54,157 nucleotides of DNA, taken from assembly GCA_023151275.1 (NCBI GenBank), contig JAKLJI010000013.1, positions 57,066 to 111,222 of the forward strand, in the 5' to 3' direction. The stretch comes from Bacteroidia bacterium (lineage in GTDB: Bacteria; Bacteroidota; Bacteroidia; UKL13-3). Under the pieces are notes generated by a model. That model saw nothing but the letters and a program-made list of their open reading frames with translations, made no database searches and had not been told where the DNA came from. Numbering within the stretch: position 1 is the stretch's first letter; each line of letters opens with the position of its first letter. Positions 7,878-25,388 of the stretch are shown here, one piece after another. A program made the translations under genes and the position numbers.

Positions 7878-8888
7878 ATGAACATGGAAGAAAACAAAAT
7901 CATCATATACAACACAGCAGACGGTAAAGCTGCCGTTTCGCTTTATGCCAAAGATGGTTCTGTATGGATGAACCAAAACCAATTGGCGGAACTTTTTGAC
8001 ACCTCTAAACAAAATATTGGCCAACACATTAAAAGCATACTGGAAGATAATGAGTTAGATAAAAATTCAGTTGTAAAGAATTACTTTACAACTGCCACAG
8101 ATGGCAAAAATTATGACGTAGTGTTCTATAGTCTCGAAATGATTCTTGCCATTGGATTCAGGGTGCGCAGTAAACGTGGTACACAATTCAGGCAATGGGC
8201 CAACCTCAATCTGAAAGAATATATCGTAAAGGGGTTTGTGATGGATGATGAACGCTTGAAAAACCCTGACGGCAGACCAGATTACTTCGATGAACTCCTG
8301 AATAGAATCCGCGATATTCGGGCATCTGAAAAACGATTTTATCAAAAGGTAAGAGATCTGTTCGCATTGAGTAGCGATTATGACGCTACCGACAAAGCCA
8401 CGCAAATGTTTTTTGCTGAAACACAAAACAAGTTACTCTTTGCCATCACCGGTAAAACAGCAGCCGAAATTGTGGTGAGCCGAGCCAATGCCTTAGAACC
8501 CAATATGGCATTGACAAGTTGGAATGGAACAGTTGTAAGAAAACAAGACATTTACATAGCCAAGAACTACCTTACTGAAGATGAAATTGACAGTCTCAAC
8601 CGCTTTATTGTCGTATTCTTAGAAACTGCCGAACTACGGGCAAAAAATCGCCAAAACATCACGATGGATTTTTGGCGAGAAAATGTAGACAAGATTATTA
8701 ACCTCAACGACAAACCCTTGCTCACACACAAAGGCAGCATAAGCAATGCTCAAATGGAAGCCTTGATCGAAAAAGTGTATGATCTGTTTGACAGTAACAG
8801 AAAAAAAACAGAAGCCACACAAGCGGATGAACAAGACCTCAATGAATTGAGTGCCTTGGAACAAAAAATCAAAACCAAGAAGAAATAG
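7878..8888 (+). CDS. RhuM-family virulence/accessory protein
   Basis: A 336-residue protein of the RhuM family. The N-terminus has the typical run (IIIYNTADGKAAVSLYAKDG, then VWMNQNQLAELFDTSKQNIG and HIKSILEDNEL), an HTH-like segment. The core YSLEMILAIGFRVRSKRGTQ and FRQWA follows, shared with the KilA-N/BRO-like region of this family. A helical region contains FYQKVRDLFALSSDYD, and the Lys-rich tail ends EQKIKTKKK. The biochemical role of RhuM proteins is unknown. They are repeatedly found inside type I R-M loci, as here just upstream of hsdM. The start could be the ATG at 7878 or the one at 7884. A 288-bp spacer without a clear gene separates it from dinD. Confidence 0.9.
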   Translation: MNMEENKIIIYNTADGKAAVSLYAKDGSVWMNQNQLAELFDTSKQNIGQHIKSILEDNELDKNSVVKNYFTTATDGKNYDVVFYSLEMILAIGFRVRSKRGTQFRQWANLNLKEYIVKGFVMDDERLKNPDGRPDYFDELLNRIRDIRASEKRFYQKVRDLFALSSDYDATDKATQMFFAETQNKLLFAITGKTAAEIVVSRANALEPNMALTSWNGTVVRKQDIYIAKNYLTEDEIDSLNRFIVVFLETAELRAKNRQNITMDFWRENVDKIINLNDKPLLTHKGSISNAQMEALIEKVYDLFDSNRKKTEATQADEQDLNELSALEQKIKTKKK

Positions 8889-9219: not shown

Positions 9220-11298
9220 ATGCAAGGAAAACAACTTAGAAAATTAGAAGCAGAACTGTGGAGAGCAGCAGACCAACTTAGGGCAAACAGTAAACTGACT
9301 GCTTCGGAATACTCAATGCCGGTGTTGGGACTGATATTCTTACGACACGCCTATAACCGTTTTCAAAAAGTAAAAATTGAAGTTGAAAAGGATTTGCCCG
9401 TGCATCCGCAACGGGGCAGACGACCTGTGACTAAAAAAGATTTTGAGGAACGTAATGCCATGTTCCTTCCCGAAAAGTCCCAGTTTGACTATCTGGTTTC
9501 ATTGCCCGAAAGTGTCGACACTGGCGAAGCGATTGACAACGCAATGAAACTGATTGAGGAGGAATATGAGAACCTCAAAGGTGTATTGCCGAAGAACTTT
9601 TCCATGTTTAGCAAAGACCTGTTGCGGGAACTGCTCCGCATTTTCAATAAAGAAGTATTGCAAAAAGCCGAAGGCGATTTGTTCGGGAAGATTTACGAAT
9701 ACTTCCTCAACAAATTTGCAATGACAGGAGCACAGGAAGGTGGAGAGTTTTTTACGCCTATGAGTTTGGTGCAAACCATTGTCAACGTGATTGAACCCGA
9801 CCACGGCATTGTGTTTGACCCTGCCTGCGGCAGTGCAGGTATGTTTGTGCAAACGGGCTATTTCATAGAGAGCGAAGGACTGAAACCCGCAGAAAAAGTT
9901 ACTTTTTACGGACAGGAGAAAGCCGAACTCAATACCAAATTGGCCAAGATGAACCTTACCGTTCACGGACTGGAAGGAAAAATTTTTGAAGGCAATACGT
10001 TTTACGAAGACAAACACAATCTTGTAGGCAGAGCTGACTTTGTAATGGCAAATCCTCCATTTAATGTGGACGGAGTGGACAAAGCCAAAGATGCTGTAAA
10101 GAAAGACCCACGCCTGATATTGGACGGCAAAGTAAACCTGCCGAAAAACGACAACGCCAACTATTTGTGGATTCAGTATTTCTACAATTACCTGAAACCA
10201 ACAGGCAGAGCAGGTTTTGTAATGGCTTCGTCTGCAAGCGATGCAGGACACAGCGAAAAGGACATTCGGGAGAAGCTGGTAAAAACAGGAGCGGTAGATG
10301 TGATGATGGCGATTGGCAACAACTTTTTCTATACCCGTTCATTGCCTTGCACCTTGTGGTTTTTTGACCGTGCCAAAGAAAAAGACGAAGCTAAAAAAGA
10401 TAAAGTGCTGATGTTGGATGCCCGAAAAATTTACCGCAAAGTAACCAGCAAGGTAAACGACTTTAGCCCCGAGCAACTGCAAAACCTGATTTGCATAGTA
10501 AACTTGTATAGAGGCAATGCCCAGAAATTTGAAAGCACAGTAAAAAACTATTTGCAAACAGCTACGGAATTATCCATAGAAACAGCCGAAGCCACCACCG
10601 AATTGCAAAAGCAATTGCAAAAGGTTTTTGAAACACTTAGCAAATTCCGTCTAAAACAAGATTCGCAAGATTTGGGGATAGACAAGATTATGCCCGAATG
10701 GAGTGAATTACAAAATGAATCTAAAATCATTTTTGACTTACAAAACCAATTGATTGAAACCGTAAAGAAAAATCAAGGCAATCAGTTAATCACAGAAATC
10801 ACGGCTCAGACAAAAGCCTTACGCAAACCGCAAGACAAACTCATTAAACAATTACTGGATGCCATAAGCACAGCCGCCAAAGAATACCAACTGAGCAAAA
10901 ACAAAGATTGGAAAGCATTGGATGTACAGGCGCAATGCATTGCGCCTCTTAAAGCCCTGCAACAACAACTGAGCGGCAACCCCGAAGAGGAGGAACCAGG
11001 ATTGCTGCACGAAACCGAATATTTTTACAAACAAGCCCATTGGCTTACAAGTCGTTTCCCCGGTGGCGTTTATACCGATGTGGAAGGACTGTGCAAGGTT
11101 GTAACTCAAAAAGAAATAGAAGCTAAAGACTGGAGCTTAAGCCCTGGCAGGTATGTAGGCGTTGACACCACTACCGATGAAGATTTTGACTACGAAGAAC
11201 GCCTGAACGAAATACATATAGAGTTGCAAGGATTGAACCAAGAAGCTATTGCCTTGGCAAAAACCATTTCAGAAAACTATAAAGCGTTGGCGATATGA
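9220..11298 (+). CDS. hsdM: Type I R-M methyltransferase subunit HsdM
   Basis: A SAM-dependent adenine-N6 DNA methyltransferase subunit of 692 residues. The N-terminal helical HsdM domain (LEAELWRAADQLRANSKLTA, with MPVLGLIFLRHAYNRF) precedes the catalytic domain. SAM motif I is DPACGSAGMF (Asp 200), and the catalytic motif IV is NPPF (Asn 278-Phe 281). Residues of about 400-640 are an unusually long, helix- and coiled-coil-rich extension containing the Gln/Leu/Lys-rich run around 450-550. The total is longer than the roughly 500-530 residues of enterobacterial HsdM. The gene ends in an ATGA overlap with hsdS. With HsdS it should methylate a bipartite target, and with the distant HsdR it should cleave unmethylated DNA. 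Confidence 0.95.
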   Translation: MQGKQLRKLEAELWRAADQLRANSKLTASEYSMPVLGLIFLRHAYNRFQKVKIEVEKDLPVHPQRGRRPVTKKDFEERNAMFLPEKSQFDYLVSLPESVDTGEAIDNAMKLIEEEYENLKGVLPKNFSMFSKDLLRELLRIFNKEVLQKAEGDLFGKIYEYFLNKFAMTGAQEGGEFFTPMSLVQTIVNVIEPDHGIVFDPACGSAGMFVQTGYFIESEGLKPAEKVTFYGQEKAELNTKLAKMNLTVHGLEGKIFEGNTFYEDKHNLVGRADFVMANPPFNVDGVDKAKDAVKKDPRLILDGKVNLPKNDNANYLWIQYFYNYLKPTGRAGFVMASSASDAGHSEKDIREKLVKTGAVDVMMAIGNNFFYTRSLPCTLWFFDRAKEKDEAKKDKVLMLDARKIYRKVTSKVNDFSPEQLQNLICIVNLYRGNAQKFESTVKNYLQTATELSIETAEATTELQKQLQKVFETLSKFRLKQDSQDLGIDKIMPEWSELQNESKIIFDLQNQLIETVKKNQGNQLITEITAQTKALRKPQDKLIKQLLDAISTAAKEYQLSKNKDWKALDVQAQCIAPLKALQQQLSGNPEEEEPGLLHETEYFYKQAHWLTSRFPGGVYTDVEGLCKVVTQKEIEAKDWSLSPGRYVGVDTTTDEDFDYEERLNEIHIELQGLNQEAIALAKTISENYKALAI

Positions 11299-12398
11299 GG
11301 TGGGAGAAAGTTGAAATAGGCCAACTAGGCGAAGTGGTAACTGGCAATACCCCTCCAAGGAAAAATCCCGAGTTGTATGGTGACTTTATCCCATTTATTA
11401 AGCCAACAGATATAGAAATTGATAGGCGATTCACTCCGCATCCAGAGGAGTGCTATTCAGAACTTGGTTTTGAGAAATATAGAAAATCATTAATCCCGAA
11501 AGGAGCAACTTGCGTTGTAACGATTGGAAGCATTGGGAAGAAAATCACACAGGCAATTACAGATTGTTTTATAAACCAGGCGGTGAACGCTGTTATTCCA
11601 AATGAAAACTATGATGCTGACTTCGTATTTTATCTACTGAAAAATAATCTTGATAAGGTTAAAGGTTTAGATTCAGGCACATCTTCTGGAAGAGAGAATG
11701 TTTCTAAATCATCCTTCTCTAGCATTGAAGTTAAAGTTGTAAAGCATCTCCCCACCCAACGCCGCATCGCTTCCATTTTATCGGCTTATGATGATTTGAT
11801 AGAGAATAATTTGAAGCGGATAAAGTTGTTGGAGGAGAAGGCGTTTTTGAGGTATAAGCAGATTGTTAGGGAGGAGAAGATGGAAGTTGAAGACAAATTG
11901 GAAAACCTAATCCAGACGGTAAAAAGAAAATTCAAAATACCAAAATCTGATTATAAAGAAAAAGGAGATATTCCAATTATTGACCAAAGCACAGATTTTA
12001 TTGGTGGCTACACAAATGAAAAAGATGCCGTTTATGAGGATGTGCCAATGATTGTTTTTGGCGACCATACAAGAATATTGAAATATATAAATTTCCCATT
12101 TGCTTGTGGTGCTGACGGTACTCAATTAGTTAAGCCTGAAAACTCAAGTCTTTCTGTTGCCTACCTATATTTTGAATTAATAAGTTGTAATCTATCAAAC
12201 TATCACTATGCGAGACATTTTAAATTCCTGAAAGAGCAAGTAATTAAATTACCAAGCGAAAAGGTAATGCAAGAATACCAAGAAGAAGCAGATAAGATTT
12301 TTAATCTAATTCAAATCTTTCGATTACAAAACACCAAACTCCGGGAGGCACGGGATATATTGTTGCCGAGGTTGATGAGTGGGGAAATAGAAGTCTGA
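11295..12398 (+). CDS. hsdS: Type I R-M specificity subunit HsdS
   Basis: A 367-residue specificity subunit translated from the ATGA overlap with hsdM. It has two target-recognition halves. TRD1 is about 1-150 (VEIGQLGEVVTGNTPPRKNP to IEVKVVKHLP), followed by the conserved helical spacer LPTQRRIASILSAYDDLIEN. TRD2 starts near 197, and a second helix ends LREARDILLPRLMSGEIEV. The two TRDs would define the two half-sites of the recognition sequence, which cannot be predicted here. The last codons overlap the left end of the GxxExxY cassette (12393), which supplies the TGA stop. Two short copies of the HsdS coding end recur downstream (12862 and 14153). Confidence 0.93.
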   Translation: MRWEKVEIGQLGEVVTGNTPPRKNPELYGDFIPFIKPTDIEIDRRFTPHPEECYSELGFEKYRKSLIPKGATCVVTIGSIGKKITQAITDCFINQAVNAVIPNENYDADFVFYLLKNNLDKVKGLDSGTSSGRENVSKSSFSSIEVKVVKHLPTQRRIASILSAYDDLIENNLKRIKLLEEKAFLRYKQIVREEKMEVEDKLENLIQTVKRKFKIPKSDYKEKGDIPIIDQSTDFIGGYTNEKDAVYEDVPMIVFGDHTRILKYINFPFACGADGTQLVKPENSSLSVAYLYFELISCNLSNYHYARHFKFLKEQVIKLPSEKVMQEYQEEADKIFNLIQIFRLQNTKLREARDILLPRLMSGEIEV

Positions 12399-12854
12399 AC
12401 GGTGATTTCTGTGATTAAATGATTGATATGATAAATGAGCAGTATAAATATTCTGAATTGACATCCAAGATCATTGGCTGTGCTATAACCGTTCATAAAA
12501 CTTTGGGTAATGGCTTTCAAGAAGTTATTTATCAACGTGCCCTTGCAATTGAAATGGGATTGGCTGGTATTAAATTTAGCAGAGAGTTTGAAATGCCTAT
12601 CTTTTACAGAGAAGAACAAATAGGAACAAGAAGGGTAGATTTTTTGGTGGAAGGAGTTATTTCGGTGGAGTTGAAGGCTATCACGAAATTGGAAGATGTT
12701 CATTTTGCTCAGGCCATTAATTACCTTGAGGCGTATAATTTGGAAATTGGATTGCTCATCAATTTTGGTGAGACAAGTTTGAATTTTCAACTCCTCACAA
12801 ACAAGAAATATAAATCACCTGAATCCCAAAAATCAAACAAATCATAGTTCAGAC
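12393..12854 (+). mobile_element. GxxExxY cassette bounded by terminal inverted repeats
   Basis: The left end 12393-12416 and the reverse complement of the right end 12831-12854 match at 20 of 24 positions, starting with the identical GTCTGAAC. One gene (GxxExxY) fills the interior, and its stop codon lies in the right repeat. The left repeat replaces the last bases of hsdS. Just outside the right end, a copy of the hsdS coding end appears (12862-12883). This arrangement looks like a small insertion element or mobile cassette. No transposase is encoded, so mobilisation in trans is inference. Confidence 0.6.
12419..12847 (+). CDS. GxxExxY family protein
   Basis: A 142-residue member of the GxxExxY family: the naming motif is Gly 32-Glu 35-Tyr 38 in LGNGFQEVIYQRAL. 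Residues 70-88 read RRVDFLVEGVISVELKAI, giving Asp 74 ... Glu 84-x-Lys 86, the spacing of a PD-(D/E)xK nuclease core. Family members are small and widespread, lack an assigned function, and sit as isolated genes in Bacteroidota, often inside R-M loci. Here it is the only gene of a TIR-bounded cassette inserted at the 3' end of hsdS. Whether it helps the element move or has a host role is unknown. An internal ATG at 12428 is an alternative start. Confidence 0.85.
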   Translation: MIDMINEQYKYSELTSKIIGCAITVHKTLGNGFQEVIYQRALAIEMGLAGIKFSREFEMPIFYREEQIGTRRVDFLVEGVISVELKAITKLEDVHFAQAINYLEAYNLEIGLLINFGETSLNFQLLTNKKYKSPESQKSNKS

Positions 12855-12861
12855 AATTGAT

Positions 12862-12883
12862 GAATGGGCAACTAGAAGTGTAA
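12862..12883 (+). repeat. Duplicated hsdS coding end, copy 2
   Basis: GAATGGGCAACTAGAAGTGTAA, read in frame from the TTG before it, gives LMNGQLEV-stop, the usual HsdS C-terminus. It matches the true hsdS end (12377-12398) at 17 of 22 positions and copy 3 at 14153 at 21 of 22. Confidence 0.7.
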
Positions 12884-12885
12884 TT

Positions 12886-13437
12886 ATGGCAAAAGTTATT
12901 TTTCTTTTACATAGCAAGCTGGAAGATATTGATTTCTCAGACTTGAAAGAGCTAAAGTGCGAATACTTTATGCTTCTGGAAAGAAATAAATTTCCTATAC
13001 CTCCCACGGGGCACTACAGCAAGATGATAGGATATTTGAAGCGTAAAGATGAGAGCAATCAAGAATCAATTGGTCCTTACAAAAACATCACCCTCTTCGA
13101 AGCTGCCAATAGAATTGCATCTGATTTGGTAATTATTAATGGCTTAATACAGTTGACGCAAGAAAAAAAGTTGAATGAGCCTCGATTCACCCTTAGGTTA
13201 GGTACTACGCATATCAGCGGTAAAGGAGATTTTAGCATAAAAATTGGTGATGAAGAGATGGAAGGAGAGGCATTTAATGTGGCACCCAGTTTTTTGAAAG
13301 GAAAGCTCTATAAAACAACAACCAAATGGAAAGAAAAAAATCTCAGCTACATACTGATTAATGATGATGCATTTGAAGGTTTCAAGGGGAGGTTGGACGG
13401 GCGGATTTTTAAAGTGAAAAATTGGATTAATCCTTAA
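12886..13437 (+). CDS. Uncharacterised protein in the hsdS-hsdR interval
   Basis: A 183-residue soluble protein that I do not recognise. The N-terminal third is charged (LEDIDFSDLKELKCEYFMLL), the middle is predicted mixed alpha/beta (ASDLVIINGLIQL), and the C-terminal half contains GDFSIKIGDEEMEGEAFNVA followed by PSFLKGK. The GDF ... EGEAFNV ... K order is reminiscent of PD-(D/E)xK nuclease variants with a displaced lysine, but this is weak. There is no signal peptide or membrane helix. The gene begins two bases after the duplicated hsdS end and is separated by 11 bp from the broken nuclease-like gene, so the two may be a unit. A real gene is supported by length, by this context and by the absence of competing frames. 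Confidence 0.7.
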   Translation: MAKVIFLLHSKLEDIDFSDLKELKCEYFMLLERNKFPIPPTGHYSKMIGYLKRKDESNQESIGPYKNITLFEAANRIASDLVIINGLIQLTQEKKLNEPRFTLRLGTTHISGKGDFSIKIGDEEMEGEAFNVAPSFLKGKLYKTTTKWKEKNLSYILINDDAFEGFKGRLDGRIFKVKNWINP

Positions 13438-13448
13438 ATCAAGCAACT

Positions 13449-14123
13449 ATGAAAAGCAAACTGGCATTTACAAAATCTGAAGCCGAAGAGATTATTCGGT
13501 TGATTAAAGAAAAACTCAAAGCCTCTACCACAAAGCAAAAAGGCATCAGGGATAAAATTCGTAAGCTTGGTTTTTATGCCAGTGATTATGGTTTTAGAGA
13601 TGGCTACACTGTTGAGCAATTTTTGAGTGTTGCAAAAATTATTGGTGGTCAGCCATTACCAGTAAAAAAAGAAGCGCAAAAAGTTGGGGTAGTGCCTACA
13701 AAAAAAACATCTACAACAAATAATTCCAGAAGCAATAGTGATGAAAGTTATGTGATTGATTTGTGTGATGAGATATTAAAGCAAATGGCTTTTCGGCAGC
13801 ACCGATTTGATTTTCTTAGGGGTGATTCAGGGGCTAAGTTGCCAGTTGACGCCTACTATCCTTCTTTAAATTTGGTGATTGAATTCAAGGAAAGACAACA
13901 CACCGAAGAGGTGAAACTATTTGATAAAAGACAAACAGTAAGTGGAGTTGGCAGAGGTGAACAAAGAAGAATTTAGGACCAAAGAAGACGAGATGTTTTG
14001 CCCCAATTTGGCATTAAACTTATTGAGTTGGATTATTCGGAATTTGAACACACAAAGGGTAAAAAGCTAATAAGAAATAAATTGGAGGATTTGAAGGTGT
14101 TGAGGGAGAGATTGAAGAAATGA
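13449..14123 (+). pseudogene. Nuclease-like gene interrupted by an in-frame amber codon
   Basis: The frame from 13449 meets TAG at 13974-13976 after 175 residues, yet continues open in the same frame for 48 more codons (DQRRRDVLPQFGIKLIELDY, then a charged helix) to TGA at 14121. The full product would be 224 residues. The visible part has a helical N-terminal domain (1-65), a polar linker (about 80-100), then a restriction-endonuclease-like core: Asp 134 in LPVDAYYP, Glu 145-Phe-Lys 147 in VIEFKER, and RGEQRRI just before the stop. The segment after TAG looks like the remaining core strands, so the codon most simply replaced a sense codon such as Tyr (TAT or TAC). It is called a nonsense pseudogene. 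Readthrough or a still active short form cannot be excluded. Confidence 0.75.
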
Positions 14124-14152
14124 GTGGCAAAAGAAGAAAAGATTAAACTAAA

Positions 14153-14174
14153 GAATGGGCAAATAGAAGTGTAA
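14153..14174 (+). repeat. Duplicated hsdS coding end, copy 3
   Basis: Differs from copy 2 (12862-12883) at one of 22 positions and reads KNGQIEV-stop in frame. It lies between the broken nuclease gene and the small-protein/RecQ/DprA block, marking the end of a second inserted or exchanged segment. Confidence 0.7.
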
Positions 14175-14239
14175 AAGATATTTTTTCTGAAAATCTGTCT
14201 TTTTAAGTTTTTTAGACTATTTATTATAAAACAAAGATT

Positions 14240-14452
14240 ATGAAACAAGAAATTGACAACAGAATTAACGAACTAAAAGAATACGTTGACAAACAACGTG
14301 AACTGATTATTGGAATTAACAATGCCATTGAAAATGATGGTTTCGTTCCTTCTGAATTGCAGCAAGTAACTATTGACTATATCTGTCAACAAGGCAAATT
14401 TGGATTAAAAGAAATAGAACGATTGGAAGGACTTAAAAAGAAATATGAATAG
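14240..14452 (+). CDS. Small charged helical protein
   Basis: A 70-residue acidic/basic protein that is predicted almost entirely helical, probably coiled coil (NRINELKEYVDKQRELIIGI and then GLKEIERLEGLKKKYE). No signal peptide, metal site or known family is visible. Its TAG stop is immediately followed by the ATG of the RecQ-PRTase gene with no intervening base, so the two are almost certainly translationally coupled. That coupling is the main reason for accepting such a short frame. A role as an adaptor or regulator of the helicase is inference only. Confidence 0.7.
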   Translation: MKQEIDNRINELKEYVDKQRELIIGINNAIENDGFVPSELQQVTIDYICQQGKFGLKEIERLEGLKKKYE

Positions 14453-16468
14453 ATGACAAGACAACAAGCAGAAATACAACTCCAAAAACTGTTTGGTTTC
14501 AGACAATTTCACGATTTGCAATGGCAAGTAATTGAAAATCTGTTGCATGGCAGACGTGTGTTGTTTATTGAGAAAACCGGTTTTGGTAAGTCACTTTGCT
14601 TTCAGTTTCCTGCTACCCAGTTAGAAGGCGTAACGATCGTATTTTCTCCGCTGATTGCTCTGATGCGAGACCAAGTAAGAAGCATGCAGGACAAGGGCAT
14701 TCGTGCCGCAGCCATCAACTCCAATCAGGAAGCTGATGAAAATGCCGCCATAATAGCCAAAGCCCAGAAGAACCAGTTAGATATTCTTTACATTGCCCCT
14801 GAACGCATGGAGAATGCTGCTTGGATAACAGCAGCAAGGGAAATGAAGATTGCTATGGTGGTGATTGATGAAGCCCATTGTATTTCTATGTGGGGTCAAA
14901 GTTTCCGTCCTAATTACCGAAGGATTGTAAACCTTGTTCGTTTATTACCAAAGAATTTTCCTGTGTTGGCGACTACTGCCACAGCCACACCAAGAGTACA
15001 GGAAGACATTATTGAACAAGTGGGTACAGACTTGATTCCCATTCGTGGGCAATTGATGCGTTCGAATATCCGCTTATTTGTGGTGCATGTGGAAAGCGAG
15101 GATGAAAAGTTCTTCTGGCTGGCTGAATATTTACCAAAACTAAAAAAAACAGGAATAGTCTATACCGGAACACAAGCCAACACAGATATTTTCTCTAACT
15201 GGTTACAATTCCTGAAATTTAATTCGGCAGCTTACAGTGGTCGTCTGGATGCAGAAAGTCGGATGCGTGTAGAATCAGACTTCATCAATAACAAATACGA
15301 TTGCGTGGTTTCTACCAATGCCTTGGGAATGGGAATAGACAAACCCGATATTCGGTTTATCATTCATACCCAAATACCGCCATCACCTATTCATTATTAC
15401 CAAGAAATTGGGCGTGCCGGACGTGATGGAAATTTGGCTTTTGCCATTCTTTTGTACAATCCACAAGCAGATGCCGATTTACCTAAAGCATTTATTGAAG
15501 GAAGCAAACCGGCTTTATCAAAGTATGAAAAGGTAATTGCCGTAATTAAAAAAGCATTGCTTGGCAGGAACGAAATCATCAAAGAAACCAATCTGAAACA
15601 AACGCAGGTCGGGGTTATCCTTGCTGACCTGATTGACCAAAAGATTGTCAATGAGCAATTAATAGGCAATAGCAAAAAATACTTCTTCAACCCTGATGCC
15701 CCTGCTTTTGATTTTTCGGCATTTGAACTATTAAGGAATGCTCAGCATCAGGAATTGGAAAAAATGCTTGAATACACAGCTACTTCCAAATGTAGGATGC
15801 AGTACCTGTGTAATTATCTGGGTGATGAAAGGCTGGGAGCTTGTGGCGTTTGCGATAATGATGCTCGACTACATATGCGTATTGTACCAACAGAAGCCAT
15901 GAAAAAGAAATTGCAGGATTTCAGGGAAACCTTTTTCCCTGTATTGGAAGTGGAAACACAACGCAGCAATATCGTAAATGGTGTAGCGGCATCCTATTAT
16001 GGTGTTTCCAACGTGGGAGCAGCACTTCGACACTCAAAATACGAAGGAGGTGGAGATTTTCCAGATTGGCTCCTTAGCATAACACTCAAAGCTTTCAGGA
16101 AGTATTATGGAAACAAGAAATTTGACAGGATACTTTATGTTCCGCCAACGGAATCAGGAGAGTTGGTTAAGAACTTTGCAGAGAAAATTTCCCGAACACT
16201 GAATATCCCGATATCGCATAAACTGGTAAAAACATCCGCTACATCACCACAAAAAATGTTTCAAAGCGGCATTTCCAAAAAGGACAATGTTCACGGTAAG
16301 TTTGCGTATCAAAAACCTGAGGAAATTTCAGGAAAAAGTATTTTACTGATTGATGACATCTTTGATAGCGGCTATACCATCAAGGAGATTGGACACTATT
16401 TGACAACCCTAGGAGCTACCACCATTGCACCGCTTGTAATTGCAAGAACCGTTGGAGGCGACATTTAA
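14453..16468 (+). CDS. RecQ-family helicase fused to a phosphoribosyltransferase-like domain
   Basis: A 671-residue fusion. The helicase core (about 10-345) has the RecQ motif 0 (FGFRQFHDLQWQVIENLL), Walker A TGFGKS (42-47), DEAH (139-142) followed by the RecQ aromatic loop CISMWGQSFRPNY, and motif VI QEIGRAGRDG. A winged-helix-like segment (about 360-400) and a cysteine cluster (Cys 447, 453, 464, 467) follow. No HRDC domain is present. Instead residues of about 500-671 resemble a ComF-like PRTase, with the PRPP loop LLIDDIFDSGYT at 631-642 and RILYVPPTESGE before it. 3'-5' DNA unwinding is expected, and the substrate of the PRTase part is unknown. It is packed directly between the small protein and dprA, inside the hsdS-hsdR interval. 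Confidence 0.9.
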   Translation: MTRQQAEIQLQKLFGFRQFHDLQWQVIENLLHGRRVLFIEKTGFGKSLCFQFPATQLEGVTIVFSPLIALMRDQVRSMQDKGIRAAAINSNQEADENAAIIAKAQKNQLDILYIAPERMENAAWITAAREMKIAMVVIDEAHCISMWGQSFRPNYRRIVNLVRLLPKNFPVLATTATATPRVQEDIIEQVGTDLIPIRGQLMRSNIRLFVVHVESEDEKFFWLAEYLPKLKKTGIVYTGTQANTDIFSNWLQFLKFNSAAYSGRLDAESRMRVESDFINNKYDCVVSTNALGMGIDKPDIRFIIHTQIPPSPIHYYQEIGRAGRDGNLAFAILLYNPQADADLPKAFIEGSKPALSKYEKVIAVIKKALLGRNEIIKETNLKQTQVGVILADLIDQKIVNEQLIGNSKKYFFNPDAPAFDFSAFELLRNAQHQELEKMLEYTATSKCRMQYLCNYLGDERLGACGVCDNDARLHMRIVPTEAMKKKLQDFRETFFPVLEVETQRSNIVNGVAASYYGVSNVGAALRHSKYEGGGDFPDWLLSITLKAFRKYYGNKKFDRILYVPPTESGELVKNFAEKISRTLNIPISHKLVKTSATSPQKMFQSGISKKDNVHGKFAYQKPEEISGKSILLIDDIFDSGYTIKEIGHYLTTLGATTIAPLVIARTVGGDI

Positions 16469-16479
16469 ACAAAATACGA

Positions 16480-17652
16480 ATGAACGAATATATTGATAAA
16501 ACATACTGGATTGCTGTATCGCATTTGCCCAAGTGGTCTATTGAACGTACAAATCGCTTTATCATTCAAATCATTCACGAGAATAAAATGTCGTGGGCCG
16601 ATTTCTTTTCCTTAGACAAAAAAGGATGGAAAGAACTATTTGCCTTTACAGACAAAGAACTGGCAGATTTGGAGTATGTTAAATCCGATATGCCGAGGTT
16701 AGCTTTTATTGCAGAACAATTGCAAAATGAAGGCTTTCAAATCATCCCGATTAATTCTCCCGATTATCCTGTGGTTTTAAAAGAGAACTTGAAAATTAAA
16801 AGTTCACCTCCTGTTCTTTACATCAAAGGCAGAAAAGGTTTATTACAGGAAGATGCGGTAGCAATTGTAGGTTCCAGAAAGGCCGGTGATAAAGCATTAT
16901 TGTTTACTGACCATGTGGCAAAGAAAAGTGTAAAAGAAAATAAAGTTGTAGTAAGTGGCTTTGCAAAAGGAGTTGACAAACAAGCACTAGACAGCACTAT
17001 AGAAGCCAATGGTAAAAGCATCATTGTTTTGCCGCAGGGTATATTAACCTTCCAGTCCGGATTCAAAAAATATTATGAGCCAATTGTGAACGGTGATGTT
17101 TTAGTATTGAGTACATTTTTCCCAAATGCCGGTTGGGATGTGGGTTTGGCAATGGCAAGAAACGTCTATATTTATGGTTTGGCCAAAGAAATTTTTGTAG
17201 CAGAATCAGATAGTAAGGGTGGCACCTGGGAAGGAGCAATGGATGGATTAAAAAGAGGTCGAAAAATATTTGTTCGTTTACCCGAGCCCAAAGAGAAGAA
17301 TGCAAATTTGAAACTGGTTGAATTAGGTGCATTGGCAATAAACATGGACGGCGATACAGTTGATTCAAAAATTATTTCTTCTTCTGAGTTAATTGAAGCA
17401 ACATCCGAACCCGTATTGAATGACCCAGACACTAAGTATGAAAACGGAAAAATTACCATTGAGAAAGACATCTTGGAATTTTTAAAAAAAGGAACATTTA
17501 CCTCAAAAGAAATTTTGCTTGGCTTGAAATTAGATTGGGAGAGCAGGAAATTAAGCAGTTTCTTAAAGAAGAATCCGAATGTAAAAACGATTGCAGGAAA
17601 GCCCGTAAAATATACCAGTACTAATTTAGAAGCTCCAACTTTATTCGGATAG
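16480..17652 (+). CDS. DprA-like (SLOG superfamily) protein
   Basis: A 390-residue DprA/Smf-family protein. A helical N-terminal region (1-85) precedes a Rossmann-like core: PVLYIKG near 111-117, AIVGSRKAGD at 128-137, VVSGFAKGVDKQALD at 157-171 and IIVLPQGI at 181-188, followed by the GGTWEGAMDGLKRGR segment. Residues of about 330-385 form a C-terminal winged-helix-like module. Classical DprA loads RecA on single-stranded DNA in transformation. This copy lies 11 bp after the RecQ-PRTase gene and 1 bp before hsdR, which favours a role in DNA processing or defence rather than competence. Key core motifs are intact. Whether a second, housekeeping dprA exists elsewhere in the genome cannot be seen here. 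Confidence 0.9.
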   Translation: MNEYIDKTYWIAVSHLPKWSIERTNRFIIQIIHENKMSWADFFSLDKKGWKELFAFTDKELADLEYVKSDMPRLAFIAEQLQNEGFQIIPINSPDYPVVLKENLKIKSSPPVLYIKGRKGLLQEDAVAIVGSRKAGDKALLFTDHVAKKSVKENKVVVSGFAKGVDKQALDSTIEANGKSIIVLPQGILTFQSGFKKYYEPIVNGDVLVLSTFFPNAGWDVGLAMARNVYIYGLAKEIFVAESDSKGGTWEGAMDGLKRGRKIFVRLPEPKEKNANLKLVELGALAINMDGDTVDSKIISSSELIEATSEPVLNDPDTKYENGKITIEKDILEFLKKGTFTSKEILLGLKLDWESRKLSSFLKKNPNVKTIAGKPVKYTSTNLEAPTLFG

Positions 17653-17653
17653 T

Positions 17654-20600
17654 ATGACTTGGGAATACTCAGAAGACAAGCTCATTGAACAAACCGCCAT
17701 TGATATATTTTATAATCAATTGGGCTGGGACACGCTATTGGCTTACAACAAAGAAGGCTTTGGCGAAGGCAGCACTTTGGGGAGACTGAACAAAAAAGAA
17801 GTAGTGCTAAAAAAGATATTCTTCGAGAAGCTAAAACAGTTCAATCCCAATTTGCCCGAACAAGCCTACAATCAAGCGTATGAAAAACTGATTGAAGAAA
17901 GTATTACAAAGTCATTAGCTGAAATCAATTTTGAGAAACATCAACTTTTAAGAAACGGAATACCTGTTGACTTTATCAACGAAAAAGGCGAACAGGTAAA
18001 AAACAAAACACTCAAAGTTTTTGATTTTGACAACGCAAACAACAACAACTTCTTAGCCGTTCGCCAATTGTGGATTCAGGGCAAAAGCAACCGTGAACGC
18101 AGACCCGATATAATCGGTTTTGTAAATGGTATTCCGCTACTGTTTATTGAATTAAAAGCTGCCCACCGCAAATTAGAAAACGCATACAACGATAATTTTA
18201 CCGATTACAAAGACGTAATTCCCAAACTCTTTTATTACAACGCATTCGTAATGCTTAGTAATGGCATTGGAAGCCGCATTGGTAGCGTTACAGGCAAGTA
18301 TCAGCATTTTCACGAATGGAAACGCATTACAGAGGAGGACGAAGGGATAGTTGCCTTAGATAGAATTATTGTAGGTGTTTGCGAGAAAAAACGCTTTTTA
18401 GATTTATTCGAGAACTTTATTCTCTTTGATAACTCTTTAGGCAAAGTGGTAAAACTTATTGCCCGAAACCATCAGTTTATTGGCGTTAACAAAGCCATTG
18501 AAAACATTCAGCACAAAGAGCAACTTTACAAACTTGGCAAAATCAGTTTAGAAGAAAAGCAAAAACTCGGTGTGTTTTGGCATACACAAGGAAGCGGAAA
18601 ATCCTATTCAATGGTTTTCTTCTGTCAAAAAATCCATCACAAGTTTACAGGTAGTTACACTTTCCTGATTGTAACAGATAGAAACGAATTAGATACACAG
18701 ATTTATGGCACGTTTAGCGGGGTAGGTGCAGTACCTCAAGTAAAAGCAGGTGCAAAAGATTCATTGAAAGCCAATAGTGGAAAGCATTTACGAGAATTAC
18801 TTAGTTCAGAACATCGCTATTTGTTTACACTCATTCACAAATTCAACTTTGAAGAAGAAATAACCAAGCGAGATAATATCATTGTCATTTCAGACGAAGC
18901 ACACCGAACACAAGGCGGAAATTTAGCAATGAACTTGCGTAATGCCTTGCCAAATGCTTCATTTATTGGCTTTACAGGAACTCCTCTTTTCAAAGACGAT
19001 GAAATCACAAAACGGATTTTCGGTGATTATGTTTCCCGATACGATTTTAAACGAAGTGTGGATGATGGTGCAACTGTTCCCTTGTTTTACGAAAACCGAG
19101 GTAACTATTTAAAGCTAGATAATCCAAAAATCAATGATAACATCCGAACACTTTTAGAAAAGGAAGAATTGGAAAGCGATGAACGAAGTAAAATTGAAAA
19201 GTTGATTGCAAGAGAATATCCAATACTTACTGCTAAGAAAAGGTTAAATGATATTGCCAAAGATGCTGTTTGGCATTTCTGCAACAGAGGTTACAAAGGC
19301 AAAGGAATGTTTATCGCATTGGATAAACTCACTGCCGTAAAAATGTATGATTTAATCACACATCATTGGAAGCAGACCGTTGAACAATTGGAAAAAGAGG
19401 TTGCTAAAGGGAAATATGGCGATCAGGAATTATTGGAGAAAAGTCGAGAACTACAATGGATAAAGGAAACAGAGATTTGTGTGGTGGTCAGTTCGGAACA
19501 AAACGAAATTCAGAAGTTTCAGAAATGGGATTTGGACATTGAGCCACATCGGGAGAAAATGAACACCCAAGACCTTGAAACAAGGTTTAAAGATGAAGAC
19601 GACCCTTTCCGTTTTGTAATAGTTTGTGCAATGTGGATTACAGGTTTCGATGTTCCTACCCTTTCTACTTTGTATTTAGACAAGCCTTTGAAGTCGCATA
19701 CACTAATGCAAGCCATCGCAAGAGCCAACCGAATCAGCGAAGGCAAAAACAACGGTTTAATAGTTGATTATATTGAAACTTACACTGCCTTATTGGATGC
19801 TTTGGCCATTTACGGTTCAGGCGGTGAAGAAGGTGGAAGTGGCGGTGGAGAAAAACCCGAACCACCCGTAAAACCGAAAGAAGAACTCATCAAACAATTG
19901 GAAGAAGCATTAGAAGCGACTGAAACATTTTTGAAAGACGAAGTAAATTTTGATTTGCAGGAACTCTTCAATGCTGACGGCTTACACAAATTGGCGGCAA
20001 TGGAAAAGGGGGTGAATGCTGTTTATACCAATGACGAAACCAAACGCAAATTTCAGGTTTTGGCGAGAGAAGTTTTCAAAAAATACAAAGCACTTCAGCC
20101 CGACAAAGTGCTAAACCTGTATGCACCAAGCAAGAACGCCATTGATGTAATCTACTCCGCTATTGAAGACAATATTGAAAGTGCTGATGTAGCAGACATA
20201 ATGCGTAAAATTCAAAATGTGGTGGACGAATCCATAGAAAATATGGTTGCCGAACCAAGCCACAACGAAGGTAAAATCATTGACCTAAGCGGTCTAGACT
20301 TTGGCTTGTTGGAGCAATATTTCCTAAAGACAAAGAATAAAAATGCAGCAGTTCAATCTCTAAAAGACAAAATTGAAAAGCAACTGAAACAAATGGTAGA
20401 ACGCAACCCATTGACAGTTGACTATTACAAACGCTATCAGGAAATTATTGAAGAATACAACAGAGGCAAAGACGAGGTTGTAATCAAGGAGACCTTCAGA
20501 AAATTGATTGAACTCGTAAACTCCTATTCAGAAGAAGAAGCCGACACCAAGCGAGAAGGTCTGACAGACGAGCAAAAAGCAATTTTCGACATTCTTAGAC

Positions 20601-20878
20601 ACGGAAAGAAGTTAGAGGAAAAAGAGAAAAACGAAATCAAGAAAATATCCATTGAACTACTTGAAGAACTGAAAAAAGACAAATTGAAAGTTGAACAATG
20701 GTCAGACAAATCGGTAACAGCAGCAGCCGTTTTCAATACCGTAAGCAAGACTTTGTTTGAAACCTTGCCCTACCCGACTTATCAAACAGACGACATTGAC
20801 TTAAAAACAAACTTAGTATATGAACATTTAAAACATCAATATTTTGGAGGAGGAATAAGTATTTACGGACAATATTAG
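17654..20878 (+). CDS. hsdR: Type I R-M restriction subunit HsdR
   Basis: A 1074-residue restriction/translocase subunit. The N-terminal nuclease has the PD-(D/E)xK core Pro 151-Asp 152 (RRPDIIGF) and Glu 166-x-Lys 168 (FIELKAA). The SF2 translocase carries Walker A GSGKS at 313-317 (QGSGKSYSMVF) and DEAH at 414-417, then FTGTPL, and helicase domain 2 with WITGFDVPTLSTLYLDKPL and QAIARANR. A Gly/Pro-rich linker near 720-740 leads to a long helical C-terminus that should bind HsdM/HsdS. All catalytic motifs are intact. It starts one base after the dprA stop, so the restriction subunit is expressed behind the RecQ/DprA block instead of next to hsdS. The last gene of the island. Confidence 0.95.
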   Translation: MTWEYSEDKLIEQTAIDIFYNQLGWDTLLAYNKEGFGEGSTLGRLNKKEVVLKKIFFEKLKQFNPNLPEQAYNQAYEKLIEESITKSLAEINFEKHQLLRNGIPVDFINEKGEQVKNKTLKVFDFDNANNNNFLAVRQLWIQGKSNRERRPDIIGFVNGIPLLFIELKAAHRKLENAYNDNFTDYKDVIPKLFYYNAFVMLSNGIGSRIGSVTGKYQHFHEWKRITEEDEGIVALDRIIVGVCEKKRFLDLFENFILFDNSLGKVVKLIARNHQFIGVNKAIENIQHKEQLYKLGKISLEEKQKLGVFWHTQGSGKSYSMVFFCQKIHHKFTGSYTFLIVTDRNELDTQIYGTFSGVGAVPQVKAGAKDSLKANSGKHLRELLSSEHRYLFTLIHKFNFEEEITKRDNIIVISDEAHRTQGGNLAMNLRNALPNASFIGFTGTPLFKDDEITKRIFGDYVSRYDFKRSVDDGATVPLFYENRGNYLKLDNPKINDNIRTLLEKEELESDERSKIEKLIAREYPILTAKKRLNDIAKDAVWHFCNRGYKGKGMFIALDKLTAVKMYDLITHHWKQTVEQLEKEVAKGKYGDQELLEKSRELQWIKETEICVVVSSEQNEIQKFQKWDLDIEPHREKMNTQDLETRFKDEDDPFRFVIVCAMWITGFDVPTLSTLYLDKPLKSHTLMQAIARANRISEGKNNGLIVDYIETYTALLDALAIYGSGGEEGGSGGGEKPEPPVKPKEELIKQLEEALEATETFLKDEVNFDLQELFNADGLHKLAAMEKGVNAVYTNDETKRKFQVLAREVFKKYKALQPDKVLNLYAPSKNAIDVIYSAIEDNIESADVADIMRKIQNVVDESIENMVAEPSHNEGKIIDLSGLDFGLLEQYFLKTKNKNAAVQSLKDKIEKQLKQMVERNPLTVDYYKRYQEIIEEYNRGKDEVVIKETFRKLIELVNSYSEEEADTKREGLTDEQKAIFDILRHGKKLEEKEKNEIKKISIELLEELKKDKLKVEQWSDKSVTAAAVFNTVSKTLFETLPYPTYQTDDIDLKTNLVYEHLKHQYFGGGISIYGQY

Positions 20879-21073: not shown

Positions 21074-24000
21074 TTAATCTTCTTTCGAAGCCATCAGCGC
21101 AGCAAATTCTTCTTTAGAACCTACAATCAGTTTTTCAAAGTCCCTGCTTCCAGTACCGGCAGGAATCAAATGACCTACGATTACGTTCTCTTTCAGGCCT
21201 AACATGGTGTCAACCTTACCGGAAATCGCAGCTTCATTCAACACTTTGGTAGTTTCCTGGAACGATGCAGCACTCATGAAGCTATGTGTACCCAAAGAAG
21301 CTTTGGTAATACCCATAATAATCTGAGTAGCTGTTGCAGGGTTTGCGTCCCTCACTTCAACCAGCTTCTGGTCCTTACGTCTCAATTGAGAATTCTCATC
21401 ACGTAATTTCCTTACACTGATAATCTGTCCGGCTTTCACATTTGGAGAATCTCCCGGATCTGTAACAACTTTCTTATCAAAAATCCAGTCGTTCATTTCC
21501 TTGAAATCCCAACGGTCAACAGTTTCGCCTTCCAGGAAGGTGGTATCACCCGGATCAACAACTTCAACATGCTTCATCATCTGACGAATGATGGTTTCTA
21601 CGTGCTTGTCGTTGATTTTTACACCCTGCAAACGGTAAACTTCCATAATTCCGTTCAAAATATAACGCTGAACGGCCAATGGTCCCTCAATACGCAAAAT
21701 ATCTTGTGGACTGATAGATCCGTCTGAAAGTGGAGAACCTGCTTTTACGAAGTCGTTCTCCTGAACCAAGATATGCTTAGAAAGTGGAACCAGGTATTTC
21801 TTCTGCTCACCGTCTTTCGAGGTAATCATAATTTCACGGTTACCACGCTTAATGCCACCAAAGCTTACAACACCATCAATCTCGGTAACAATAGCCGGGT
21901 TAGATGGGTTACGTGCTTCAAACAATTCAGTTACACGTGGCAAACCACCGGTAATGTCTCGGGTTTTTCCAACAACACGTGGAATCTTCACAAGAATTTC
22001 ACCGGCTTTAACAGTATGGCCTTCTTCAATTACGATGTGAGCTCCTACTGGTAAGTTGTATTCTTTTTCAGTGCCTGCTTTTGAATCAGCAATAACAATC
22101 GAAGGAATCTTCGTTTTATCACGACTCTCAACAATCACTTTTTCTTTGTGACCGGTTTGCTCATCACTTTCCTCTTTAAAGGTAACGTTCTCAATGATGT
22201 TCAAGAAGCTAGCTTTACCGGAGAATTCAGAAATAATAACCGCGTTGTATGGGTCCCAGGTACAAATAGGTTGTCCTTTTTCAATTTTCTGACCAGGCTT
22301 AACCATCAAGTGTGCACCGTAAGGAATGTTCACAGTAATGATTGGATTTCTGGTTTTCTCATCCAAAATCCTAACCTCACCCTGACGTCCCAATACTACA
22401 GTTACTACTCCATCTTCAGTTCCAAGCTCAGTTGTTCTGATTTCTTCAAACTCAAGAATACCACCAAATTTAGCTTGCATTTGAGATTCAGATGCAATGT
22501 TTGATGCAGTACCACCCACGTGGAAGGTACGAAGTGTAAGCTGTGTTCCTGGTTCACCAATCGACTGTGCGGCAATTACACCTACAGCATCACCTTTTTG
22601 TGAGCCACGGCCAGTTGCCATACTGCGTCCGTAACACTTGGTACAAACTCCATAACGGGTTTCACAAGTCAGCGCAGAACGGATTTCAACCGTTTCAATT
22701 GGTGATTCTTCAATAACACTTGCAATCTCTTCTGTAATATCAGCACCCGATTTGCAAATCAACTCTCCTGTTAATGGATTGTAGATATCGTGCAAACTGG
22801 TACGTCCCAAAATACGTTCGTAAAGTGTTTCTACAACCTCTTCATTGTCTTTCAATGCAGAAATTGGAATTCCGCGAAGTGTTCCGCAATCTTCTTCACT
22901 TACTACAACGTCTTGAGCTACGTCATGCAAACGACGAGTGAGGTAACCTGCGTCAGCTGTTTTCAAAGCCGTATCCGCAAGACCCTTACGAGCACCGTGG
23001 GTTGAGATAAAGTATTCGATAACCGAAAGCCCTTCTTTAAAGTTTGAAAGAATTGGGTTCTCGATAATCTCACCGGTACCACCACTTAGGTTTTTCTGTG
23101 GTTTTGCCATCAGACCCCTCATACCACCAAGCTGACGAATCTGCTCTTTAGAACCCCTCGCACCAGAATCCAACATCATGTAAATTGGATTGAATCCTTG
23201 CTGGTCGTCTTTCAACTGACGAAGTAAGGTATCGGCAAGACGAGAGTTGATACGTGTCCAGATGTCAATTACCTGGTTATAACGTTCGTTATTGGTAATG
23301 AAACCGTTGTTGTAGTTATCCCAAATTTCATCAACCTCAGCTTGCGCTTGTTTGATAAAGGTATCTTTTTCAGAAGGGATATTTACATACGATAAGTTAA
23401 ACGATAGTCCACCACGGAAAGCGTATTGGAAACCAAGGTACTTGATATCGTCTAGGAACATGGCACAACGGTCTTGTCCAACCTCTTTGTACATGTTACC
23501 AATGATATCACGCAATGATTTCTTGGTCAACAATTCGTTGATGTATCCGTGCTCCTCAGGTACAACCTGATTGAACAAAATACGACCCATTGTGGTATCA
23601 ATCAAACGGGAAACAAGTTCACCGTTTTCTTTCACTTTTACACGGCATTTAACCAAGGCGTGCAAGGCAACTCTTCCTTCGTTGTAAGCAATAATTGCTT
23701 CTTCAGCCGAATAGAATACGAGTCCTTCACCTTTGATTTCATGTCCTTCAACTGATTTACGGCCTTTGGTAATGTAGTACAAACCAAGAACCATGTCCTG
23801 AGATGGAACCGTAATAGGCGCTCCGTTGGCAGGGTTCAGGATATTGTGTGGTGCCAGCATCAGCATCTGGGCTTCCAGAATTGCTGCGTTTCCAAGCGGT
23901 ACGTGAACCGCCATCTGGTCACCGTCAAAGTCGGCGTTAAAACCGGTACAAACCAATGGGTGAAGTTGAATTGCTTTTCCTTCTACCAATTTAGGTTGGA

Positions 24001-25351
24001 AAGCCTGAATACCCAATCTGTGAAGTGTTGGGGCCCGGTTCAGAAGAACAGGATGTCCTTTCAAAATATTTTCAAGAATATCCCAAACTACTGCCTCTTT
24101 GCGGTCAACGAGTTTCTTGGCAGATTTAACCGTTTTTACGATGCCTCTTTCAAGAAGCTTACGGATAATGAATGGCTTAAACAGCTCGGCTGCCATATTC
24201 TTAGGAATACCGCATTCGTGCAGTTTCAGGTTTGGTCCCACCACAATTACCGAACGACCCGAGTAGTCAACACGTTTACCAAGCAAGTTCTGACGGAAGC
24301 GACCTTGTTTACCTTTGAGCATATCGCTTAAAGATTTCAAGGGTCTGTTACCTTCAGTTTTTACAGCACTTACACGGCGAGTATTGTCAAACAAAGAGTC
24401 AACAGCTTCTTGTAACATACGCTTTTCGTTACGTAAAATTACTTCAGGAGCTTTGATCTCAATCAGGCGCTTAAGACGGTTGTTACGGATAATTACCCTT
24501 CTGTACAAATCGTTCAAGTCGGAAGTCGCAAAACGACCGCCTTCTAATGGAACGAGTGGACGCAATTCCGGTGGAATTACAGGAAGAATTTTCACAACCA
24601 TCCATTCAGGACGGTTTTCGCCATGAACCTGAGCATTTCTAAATCCTTCAACAACTTTCAACCGTTTCAAAGCTTCGTTTTTACGTTGTTGTGAAGTTTC
24701 AGTATTGGCTTTGTTACGCAAATCGTAACTCAGGTTATCAAGGTTGATGCGCGATAGTAAGAACCAAAGCGCATCTCCACCCATTTTAGCAATGAACTTA
24801 TTCGGATCATTGTCATCCAGGTGCTGGTTATCTTTTGGAAGTGAATCCAAAATATCCAGATATTCTTCTTCAGTAATTAAATCTAAGTTGCCAACACCAT
24901 CAGCTGCCTTAATTCCTGGTTGACATACTACGTATCTTTCGTAGTAAACAACCATGTCGAGCTTCTTGGAAGGAATACCCAACAGGTAACCAATTTTATT
25001 TGGCAATGAACGGAAATACCAGATATGTGCAACTGGAACAACCAGGTTGATATGGCCCATGCGTTCGCGACGCACTTTTTTCTCAGTAACTTCAACACCG
25101 CAACGGTCACAAACAATTCCTTTATAACGAATGCGCTTGTACTTTCCGCAATGACATTCGTAATCCTTCATAGGACCAAAAATGCGCTCGCAGAACAATC
25201 CACCCATTTCCGGTTTAAAGGAACGGTAGTTAATTGTTTCCGGTTTGGTTACTTCTCCAAATGAACGCTGAAGAATGCTCTCTGGTGAGGCAAGTCCAAT
25301 GCGAATTTTGGTGAAATTTGCTTTTATTTTTTGCTCTTTTTTCAAAGACAT
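21074..25351 (-). CDS. rpoC: RNA polymerase beta' subunit
   Basis: The largest subunit of RNA polymerase, 1425 residues, in the usual range for Bacteroidota. The N-terminal zinc ribbon ([20 protein letters not shown]) is near 66-85. The catalytic Mg2+ loop NADFDGD lies at 472-478, with Asp 474, 476 and 478. The second zinc cluster is visible at [14 protein letters not shown], and the trigger-loop region ([10 protein letters not shown] is nearby, then [16 protein letters not shown]) is intact. It is the last gene of the rplKAJL-rpoBC operon, separated from rpoB by 46 bp that hold a hairpin, and followed by a strong terminator. Nothing unusual is visible in the catalytic parts. Confidence 0.99.
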
Positions 25352-25368
25352 AATGCTGCTATTTGTAA

Positions 25369-25388
25369 AGCCCGGGTTGCCCCGGGCT
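25369..25388 (-). other. Hairpin in the rpoB-rpoC spacer
   Basis: An 8-bp perfect G+C stem (25369-25376 with 25381-25388) and 4-nt loop lie between the rpoB stop and the rpoC start. No run of T follows on the minus strand, so it is more likely a processing or stability element than a terminator. Confidence 0.55.

Follow-up and report, generated by a model that had tools for sequence, protein, structure and literature searches.

A PsyrTA/RqlHI-type gene pair in the hsdS-hsdR gap of type I restriction-modification operons of Bacteroidota

The closest described relatives of the genes analysed here are PsyrTA and RqlHI, in which a RecQ helicase carrying a C-terminal phosphoribosyltransferase (PRTase) domain is followed by a DprA-like partner; Sberro 2013 is said to be the source for PsyrTA. 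We describe such a pair, psyrT-psyrA, in a 54,157-nucleotide stretch of contig JAKLJI010000013.1 (positions 57,066 to 111,222, forward strand) from a Bacteroidia bacterium of the UKL13-3 lineage (GCA_023151275.1). This whole stretch is hereafter called the window, and the pair lies in it between hsdS and hsdR of a type I restriction-modification (R-M) operon. According to Russell and Mulvey (2015; PMC4670107), RqlH is genotoxic through its PRTase domain, most effects being abolished by the D663A substitution, while RqlI binds to RqlH; in strains that have the two genes, rqlH is the upstream one. The same paper names the PsyrT/PsyrA pair of P. syringae, reports toxin-antitoxin behaviour in E. 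coli and P. syringae, and leaves the purpose of RqlHI open. A pair of DprA and PRTase proteins from P2-like phages protects against T7 and lambda, with DprA suggested as the sensor (PMC9122126), and a review citing Pu et al. 2025 presents the related toxin ShosT as a PRTase and pyrophosphatase disturbing purine pools (PMC12593503). In P. aeruginosa, PsyrTA itself has been counted among the toxin-antitoxin systems of phage defence, 11 of 100 strains carrying it (PMC10855318).

We consider it probable (roughly 0.72) that psyrT-psyrA of the window (14453-17652) is a PsyrTA/RqlHI pair docked in the hsdS-hsdR gap, where a PRTase toxin kept in check by its DprA-like antitoxin would add a second layer to restriction. 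The genes and motifs that carry this reading are the following (aa, amino acids; PRPP, phosphoribosyl pyrophosphate).

9220..11298, + strand: hsdM, type I methyltransferase subunit, 692 aa (Pfam N6_Mtase 2.3e-77, HsdM_N; PADLOC MTase_I 8.8e-242)
11295..12398, + strand: hsdS, specificity subunit, 367 aa (Pfam Methylase_S 6.8e-27)
14453..16468, + strand: psyrT / rqlH, RecQ helicase with C-terminal PRTase domain, putative toxin, 671 aa (PADLOC)
15791..15853, + strand: RecQ zinc-binding cysteines C447, C453, C464 and C467 of PsyrT (Pfam RecQ_Zn_bind 428-469; alignment)
16340..16378, + strand: PRPP loop ILLIDDIFDSGYT, residues 630-642 of PsyrT (alignment; D635 corresponds to RqlH D663)
16480..17652, + strand: psyrA / rqlI, DprA-like (Rossmann) putative antitoxin, 390 aa (PADLOC; AlphaFold2 model and Foldseek)
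17654..20878, + strand: hsdR, type I restriction/translocase subunit, 1074 aa (NCBIfam hsdR 7.2e-144; Pfam HSDR_N 1.5e-38)

The hsdM, hsdS and hsdR genes around the block are all open reading frames (ORFs) with the expected domains, HsdR carrying HSDR_N, SWI2_SNF2 and T1RH-like_C, and the block lies on the same strand. Recomputed from the sequence, the gaps are 0 bp from a 70-aa ORF to psyrT, 11 bp from psyrT to psyrA and 1 bp from psyrA to hsdR, which bears out the ORFs, order, spacing and nesting in a type I R-M operon given by the initial annotation.

The family assignment of PsyrT is nearly full-length, residues 2-670 matching positions 2-688 of the 689 of the PADLOC PsyrT profile PDLC03928 at E 1.2e-250. 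Pfam places DEAD at 22-184, Helicase_C at 225-326, RecQ_Zn_bind at 428-469 and Pribosyltran at 575-659 (1.8e-7), and finds no HRDC domain in the window protein; with PADLOC, it thus confirms the earlier description of a RecQ helicase with a C-terminal PRTase domain and without HRDC. The protein falls short of the canonical RecQ equivalog (TIGR01389, 376 bits against a cut-off of 640). All of 26 aligned PsyrT/RqlH proteins have motif I (TGxGKS), DEAH and the PRPP-loop core, and D634, D635 and S639 are invariant, so the loop whose reality the initial annotation had left to homologues is real; at G640, four of the six rows from outside Bacteroidota have another residue. In E. coli ATCC 25922, RqlH carries DIVD at 663, its D663 being aligned with D635 of the window. 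Residues 458-666 resemble GntX and 545-665 ComF, both far under cut-off, and PDB sequence matches of the PRTase part are weak ones to hypoxanthine-guanine phosphoribosyltransferases (HGPRTs; best 0.018). The predicted structure is poor (mean predicted local distance difference test (pLDDT) 57, predicted template modelling score (pTM) 0.37, with the better blocks mostly in residues 541-660); the PDB lists of the structure search are dominated by RecQ cores, and the rows of the VIA list cover residues 1-345. Since this model is too poor for a pocket to be judged, the PRTase assignment rests on sequence, namely Pribosyltran and the weak HGPRT matches. The four zinc cysteines (447, 453, 464 and 467) are kept in the clade of PsyrT proteins nested in hsd operons and in its nearest sisters, and two of the four are replaced in seven of eight Bacteroidota PsyrT proteins that are 51-60% identical to the window's, an unevenness that hints at a functional split among PsyrT proteins.

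The partner, PsyrA, matches the PADLOC PsyrA profile PDLC03927 at E 4.8e-83 and that of ShosA at 2e-34, and Pfam DNA_processg_A covers residues 81-283, so that the DprA-like nature proposed for this gene was borne out; the canonical DprA equivalog is not reached (TIGR00732, 116 bits against a cut-off of 191). Its AlphaFold2 model, of moderate quality (pLDDT 69), has the ShosA antitoxin 8zva as best Foldseek match (E 3.0e-13), narrowly ahead of DprA proteins. Near full-length PADLOC matches, the order of a RecQ-PRTase gene followed by a DprA-like gene, and the retained PRPP-loop aspartates are shared with PsyrTA/RqlHI. The combination that the initial annotation took for new is therefore already known, and the novelty that stood is that of the place, which is recurrent and arose more than once. 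The ShosTA and P2-like phage pairs likewise join a PRTase toxin to a DprA-like antitoxin, but ShosT has no RecQ part, its 237-position PADLOC profile matching PsyrT residues 572-667 only. In the ComFA/ComFC and DprA proteins the like parts, that is a helicase, a zinc finger with a PRT domain, and DprA, are encoded by separate genes and serve DNA uptake (PMC9005727).

The arrangement recurs in Bacteroidota. A genome scan with short patterns from the window protein, which finds close relatives only, returned 18 loci, 12 of them with full-length PsyrT at 67-92% identity. In all 12 the DprA-like PsyrA is directly downstream, as in the window, and in eight (L008, L009, L010, L011, L012, L013, L015 and L019) an hsdR of the window's subfamily comes next; the named nested loci belong to Chitinophagaceae, Weeksellaceae and Lentimicrobiaceae, although some loci are contigs of metagenome-assembled genomes whose names may be wrong. 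Because PsyrT is identical in L010 and L011, and L009 and L019 (as well as L036 of genome G459) share one sequence, the eight nested matches represent six different PsyrT sequences besides that of the window. A single base pair separates the psyrA stop from the hsdR start in the window and in seven of the eight other nested loci, among them L009, where this start is that of a partial hsdR copy; in L013 the two are 4 bp apart. Such repetition makes the spacing more than chance. Two matches were found among 64 family genomes, one being L036 of G459, and none in the small sample of eight genomes from the family of G266. The even draw of 395 phylum genomes yielded PsyrT in ten including the window, the other nine being 51-60% identical.

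The remaining close relatives and the state of several nested loci deserve mention. L016 and L017 end less than 650 bp from psyrTA, too short to judge. The wide flanks of L014 and L018 lack hsd matches; here as elsewhere, matches were scored at E 1e-5 against the Hsd proteins of the window, so that remote Hsd families could escape. In L014, a methylase gene and a ResIII gene, which Pfam marks as a type III R-M pair, precede psyrTA at a distance of 122 bp. In L018, a UvrD-type helicase-nuclease gene and a recC-like gene (Exonuc_V_gamma, RecC_C) occupy 11853-18417, convergent to psyrTA. The contig of L010 ends 94 codons into hsdR, and the hsdR of L008 (Parafilimonas terrae) matches up to residue 477 only, near a contig end; at 3439-4829 the same locus has an hsdM without the region matching window residues 166-391, possibly a methylase-dead operon that retained psyrTA. 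The hsdR starts at 13202 in L009 and 12262 in L019 have an in-frame TAG at codon 5, and hsdR may consequently be off there or start further in.

The psyrTA genes are one of many loads carried at this position. What separates hsdS from psyrT differs among the nested loci, being McrB/McrC in L008, a KwaB-like protein and its 191-aa partner in L012 and L013, an OLD-like ATPase in L015 and a GxxExxY protein in L009 and L019; in L010 and L011 there is nothing, hsdS overlapping psyrT. None of 20 further loci of the phylum draw whose HsdR is related has psyrTA; hsdS was seen in 16 of them, and 15 of these hold another co-directional ORF of at least 90 aa in the hsdS-hsdR gap (none in L109). The families identified there are McrBC (L099), GmrSD (L100), an AAA_21 ATPase (L106), schlafen AlbA_2 (L108) and RhuM-Fic (L095, L096). 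The hsdS-hsdR gap is thus a dock that exchanges defence genes of many kinds. Possible footprints of this traffic were found in two of nine nested loci tested. In L008, a 50-bp copy (96%) of the start of its own hsdR lies at 9948-9997 and ends 3 bp before psyrT, and in L009 a 101-bp copy (95%) of the hsdR start (13205-13305) directly follows psyrA, with 1.5 kb and then the full hsdR behind it; a search of the window itself found no such copy. These copies are likely to be joints left by cargo entry at the start of hsdR, and would suggest where new cargo joins the operon. The 1.5-kb insert of L009, which could be a toxin-antitoxin-chaperone module, contains a 137-aa HTH_3 ORF and a second ORF, about 156 aa long, that has no Pfam match and looks SecB-like by eye.

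The diversity of this cargo bears on the proposal of the initial annotation that the helicase, the PRTase and DprA together process, check or repair cut DNA. Domain content and placement before hsdR would suit such a role, and titles of matched PDB entries speak of DprA homologues binding single-stranded DNA (ssDNA). Nevertheless, the published relatives are toxin and antitoxin, the slot holds many unrelated defence genes, and the pair occurs without neighbouring R-M genes in many loci, while the proposed trio was not found elsewhere; we regard this processing role as highly improbable and the claim as unsupported. The broader suggestion of a defence module is plausible.

Cargo embedded in type I R-M operons is, in principle, already published, and two cases come close to the present one. 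The toxin of DarTG2 is a DNA ADP-ribosyltransferase. DarTG2 of enteropathogenic E. coli (EPEC) is a toxin-antitoxin pair in the same position between hsdS and hsdR, a site called a potential recombination hotspot, but its toxin is unrelated to PsyrT and a regulator gene, rptR, heads the EPEC operon (PMC12255303). TgvAB, embedded in the type I R-M operon of VPI-2 (Vibrio pathogenicity island 2) in V. cholerae, is also a two-gene defence module, though one of type IV (GmrSD-like) restriction and not a toxin-antitoxin pair (PMC11411939). The extracts retrieved from open-licence PubMed Central articles hold no mention of PsyrTA in the hsdS-hsdR slot.

The same order, hsdM-hsdS-psyrT-psyrA-hsdR, exists outside Bacteroidota, in the E. 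coli conjugative plasmid NZ_OX030731 and on the chromosome of E. coli 2/0, with an HsdR 46% identical to that of the window. The 10-kb E. coli cassette is present over at least 80% of its length in 53 of 5426 complete genomes, always at 99% identity or more, and a few of these copies carry an inserted IS3-type element; a search for relatives of the E. coli hsdR gave six weak partial matches besides 54 near-identical records. In two other E. coli chromosomes, by contrast with the docked pair of the window, rqlHI stands alone between gntU and yhgN, rqlH being annotated as frameshifted in one. Contexts were examined for three of 1656 E. coli records and for five of 13 plasmid records with PsyrT, and the pair is embedded in two of the five plasmid contexts. 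One is on Acinetobacter plasmid L115 (NZ_CP090068.1), where the RecQ-PRTase and DprA pair sits within a BREX (bacteriophage exclusion) operon, between pglX and pglZ, with a DUF262 gene. The pair of a Nostoc plasmid stands alone, and the copies of Sinorhizobium and Halanaeroarchaeum lie outside R-M or BREX operons. No match to the Acinetobacter PsyrT was found in 50,697 phage records at E 1e-60.

Phylogenetic analyses indicate that these embeddings do not descend from one event. In an IQ-TREE phylogeny of PsyrT (28 rows, L009 being excluded as a duplicate and L045 lacking a usable ORF; long branches meet at the RecQ outgroup), a clade (97/97) within Bacteroidota unites the eight nested rows of the window type, with L014 as its nearest outgroup, and the nested E. 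coli PsyrT is sister to the chromosomal RqlH (100/99). The label 'inside hsd' requires at least two changes on this tree, and none of 200 bootstrap trees allows a single one. Accordingly, psyrTA entered hsd operons at least twice separately; one ancient entry, lost many times afterwards, would cost more changes on the PsyrT tree and is a strained though conceivable alternative. On the HsdR tree (25 rows; L097, L098 (partial), L008, L009 and L010 omitted; cargo labels by our own reading) the same label changes at least three times, and the row nearest by path to the window HsdR, its sister L095 (100/99), carries a RhuM-Fic gene and no psyrTA.

The repeated entry into different systems invites the idea of a guard, in which PsyrTA would stay quiet while HsdMSR, BREX or type III R-M works, and would release the PRTase toxin in response to a phage anti-restriction protein, or when restriction-made ends are unwound to ssDNA that PsyrA binds. 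This would be the logic of PrrC/EcoprrI with another effector. That Bacteroidota and E. coli acquired psyrTA in type I R-M operons separately, that a pair lies inside BREX between pglX and pglZ, and that L014, the nearest outgroup of the nested clade, has its pair behind type III R-M genes are all in its favour, and helicase and DprA domains would suit the sensing of DNA ends or ssDNA. However, related slots hold KwaB-like, McrBC, GmrSD, RhuM-Fic and AlbA_2 proteins without such a link, the HsdR closest to the window's carries RhuM-Fic instead of psyrTA, and stand-alone PsyrTA is common. Docking alone explains the linkage of psyrTA and hsd, since unrelated systems share the gap and psyrTA was exchanged near the window's HsdR branch, and we consider the guard doubtful. 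Embedding in several modification-based systems makes such a role attractive, and in its most general form PsyrTA might be a portable guard of modification-based immunity, docked independently in type I R-M (Bacteroidota, E. coli), in BREX (Acinetobacter) and beside type III R-M because its antitoxin and helicase sense ssDNA, DNA ends or the failure of restriction, and let the PRTase toxin loose once the first layer is breached; we offer this very tentatively. The finding of the pair, by separate entries, in DNA-modification defence operons does provide a concrete hypothesis for the purpose of RqlHI, and the 10-kb E. coli cassette would be a natural test bed.

The mobility of these cassettes could also reflect addiction, psyrTA being a selfish module that stabilises the mobile hsd cassette and contributes little or nothing against phages. 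The toxin-antitoxin behaviour cited above for E. coli and P. syringae (PMC4670107) would fit, as would the E. coli cassette, which lies near a tyrosine recombinase gene and is once on a conjugative plasmid, and the recent spread suggested by PsyrT proteins 87-92% identical to the window's across three Bacteroidota families. In a later study in the native host, expression of PsyrTA in E. coli NILS69 gave a growth defect and no detectable phage protection (PMC12409345), which points the same way. Against this, the phage DprA and PRTase pair blocks T7 and lambda (PMC9122126), and wherever a family search identified the contents of related slots these are defence genes, so that we find addiction without defence unlikely.

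We therefore return to PsyrTA as a second defence layer, which could operate as follows. After entry of psyrTA into the hsdS-hsdR gap of a type I R-M operon, the pair would share one transcript with hsdR, as the gaps suggest. By analogy with the published relatives, the PRTase domain would be the toxic part of PsyrT, the helicase part would bring the protein to DNA, and the DprA-like PsyrA would bind and restrain it. Infection or DNA damage might then free or activate PsyrT, and the released protein would damage DNA or the nucleotide pool and stop the cell, behind restriction as the first layer. Several observations weigh against this interpretation. The window proteins are distant from those of E. 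coli (PsyrT about 32% identical; PsyrA 38-40% over 187-211 residues), and toxicity might for that reason not carry over to the window pair. RqlH occurs without RqlI in 55.3% of the strains surveyed by Russell and Mulvey (PMC4670107), and the NILS69 result speaks for growth inhibition without protection. Most PsyrTA pairs seen lie outside hsd operons, none of the eight stand-alone Bacteroidota loci with flanks (the 51-60% group) matching the window's hsd proteins. Some nested relatives look damaged, L008 by its gapped hsdM and broken-off hsdR and L009/L019 by the stop at hsdR codon 5, and independent promoters within the operon are possible. Taken together, the locus is a known toxin-antitoxin pair at a new and repeated address, with an orphan neighbour; psyrTA itself is ordinary, and its convergent embedding and the footprints at hsdR are what is useful and testable.

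The orphan is the 70-aa ORF upstream of psyrT, preceded by three other ORFs that separate it from hsdS and that the initial annotation had not mentioned.

12419..12847, + strand: GxxExxY protein, cargo (NCBIfam TIGR04256 5.5e-39)
12886..13437, + strand: 183-aa ORF, cargo (no match in Pfam, PADLOC, NCBIfam or PHROGs)
13449..13976, + strand: 175-aa ORF, weakly like PvuRts1I-type or homing endonucleases (Pfam, PADLOC and PHROG matches)
14240..14452, + strand: 70-aa orphan ORF, its stop codon abutting the psyrT start (sequence)

A three-gene system including the 70-aa protein had been proposed and is rejected, as the small protein does not recur beside psyrT, the outcome that the initial annotation had itself named as refuting the trio: it has no counterpart in 12 other close psyrTA loci or in nine distant ones, and at E<=0.01 only the window copy was found among the 395 phylum genomes (394 of them other Bacteroidota) and among 58 relatives. 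Twenty other phylum genomes match at 0.018-0.097 (14.7-17.7 bits), mostly through short stretches of longer frames, and we read these as chance. No family match was obtained in Pfam, PADLOC or NCBIfam (one PHROG at 0.092), and none among plasmids or viral contigs. The 70-aa ORF and the others between hsdS and psyrT are separate cargo and not components of the system.

Relatives of the GxxExxY protein occur in the hsd operons of L008, L009/L019 and L098, lying between hsdM and hsdS in L008 and L098 (tblastn). The 175-aa ORF has a Pfam match of 0.0058, under cut-off, and matches PADLOC mREase_II at 0.0026 and a homing endonuclease PHROG at 1.8e-6. This copy looks interrupted, since it stops at an in-frame TAG (13974-13976) from which the same frame continues for 48 codons to a stop at 14123, and three relatives have open frames of 239-270 aa. 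Just upstream of hsdM, the window contains a Bro-N ORF (6750-7589) and a RhuM protein (7878-8888; PADLOC PDC-S05), RhuM-Fic genes being those that occupy the hsdS-hsdR slot in L095 and L096. On the other side, rpoC-rpoB (21074-29213) is convergent with hsdR, the defence block thus bordering core genes, and tRNA genes are found at 32-34 kb of the window.

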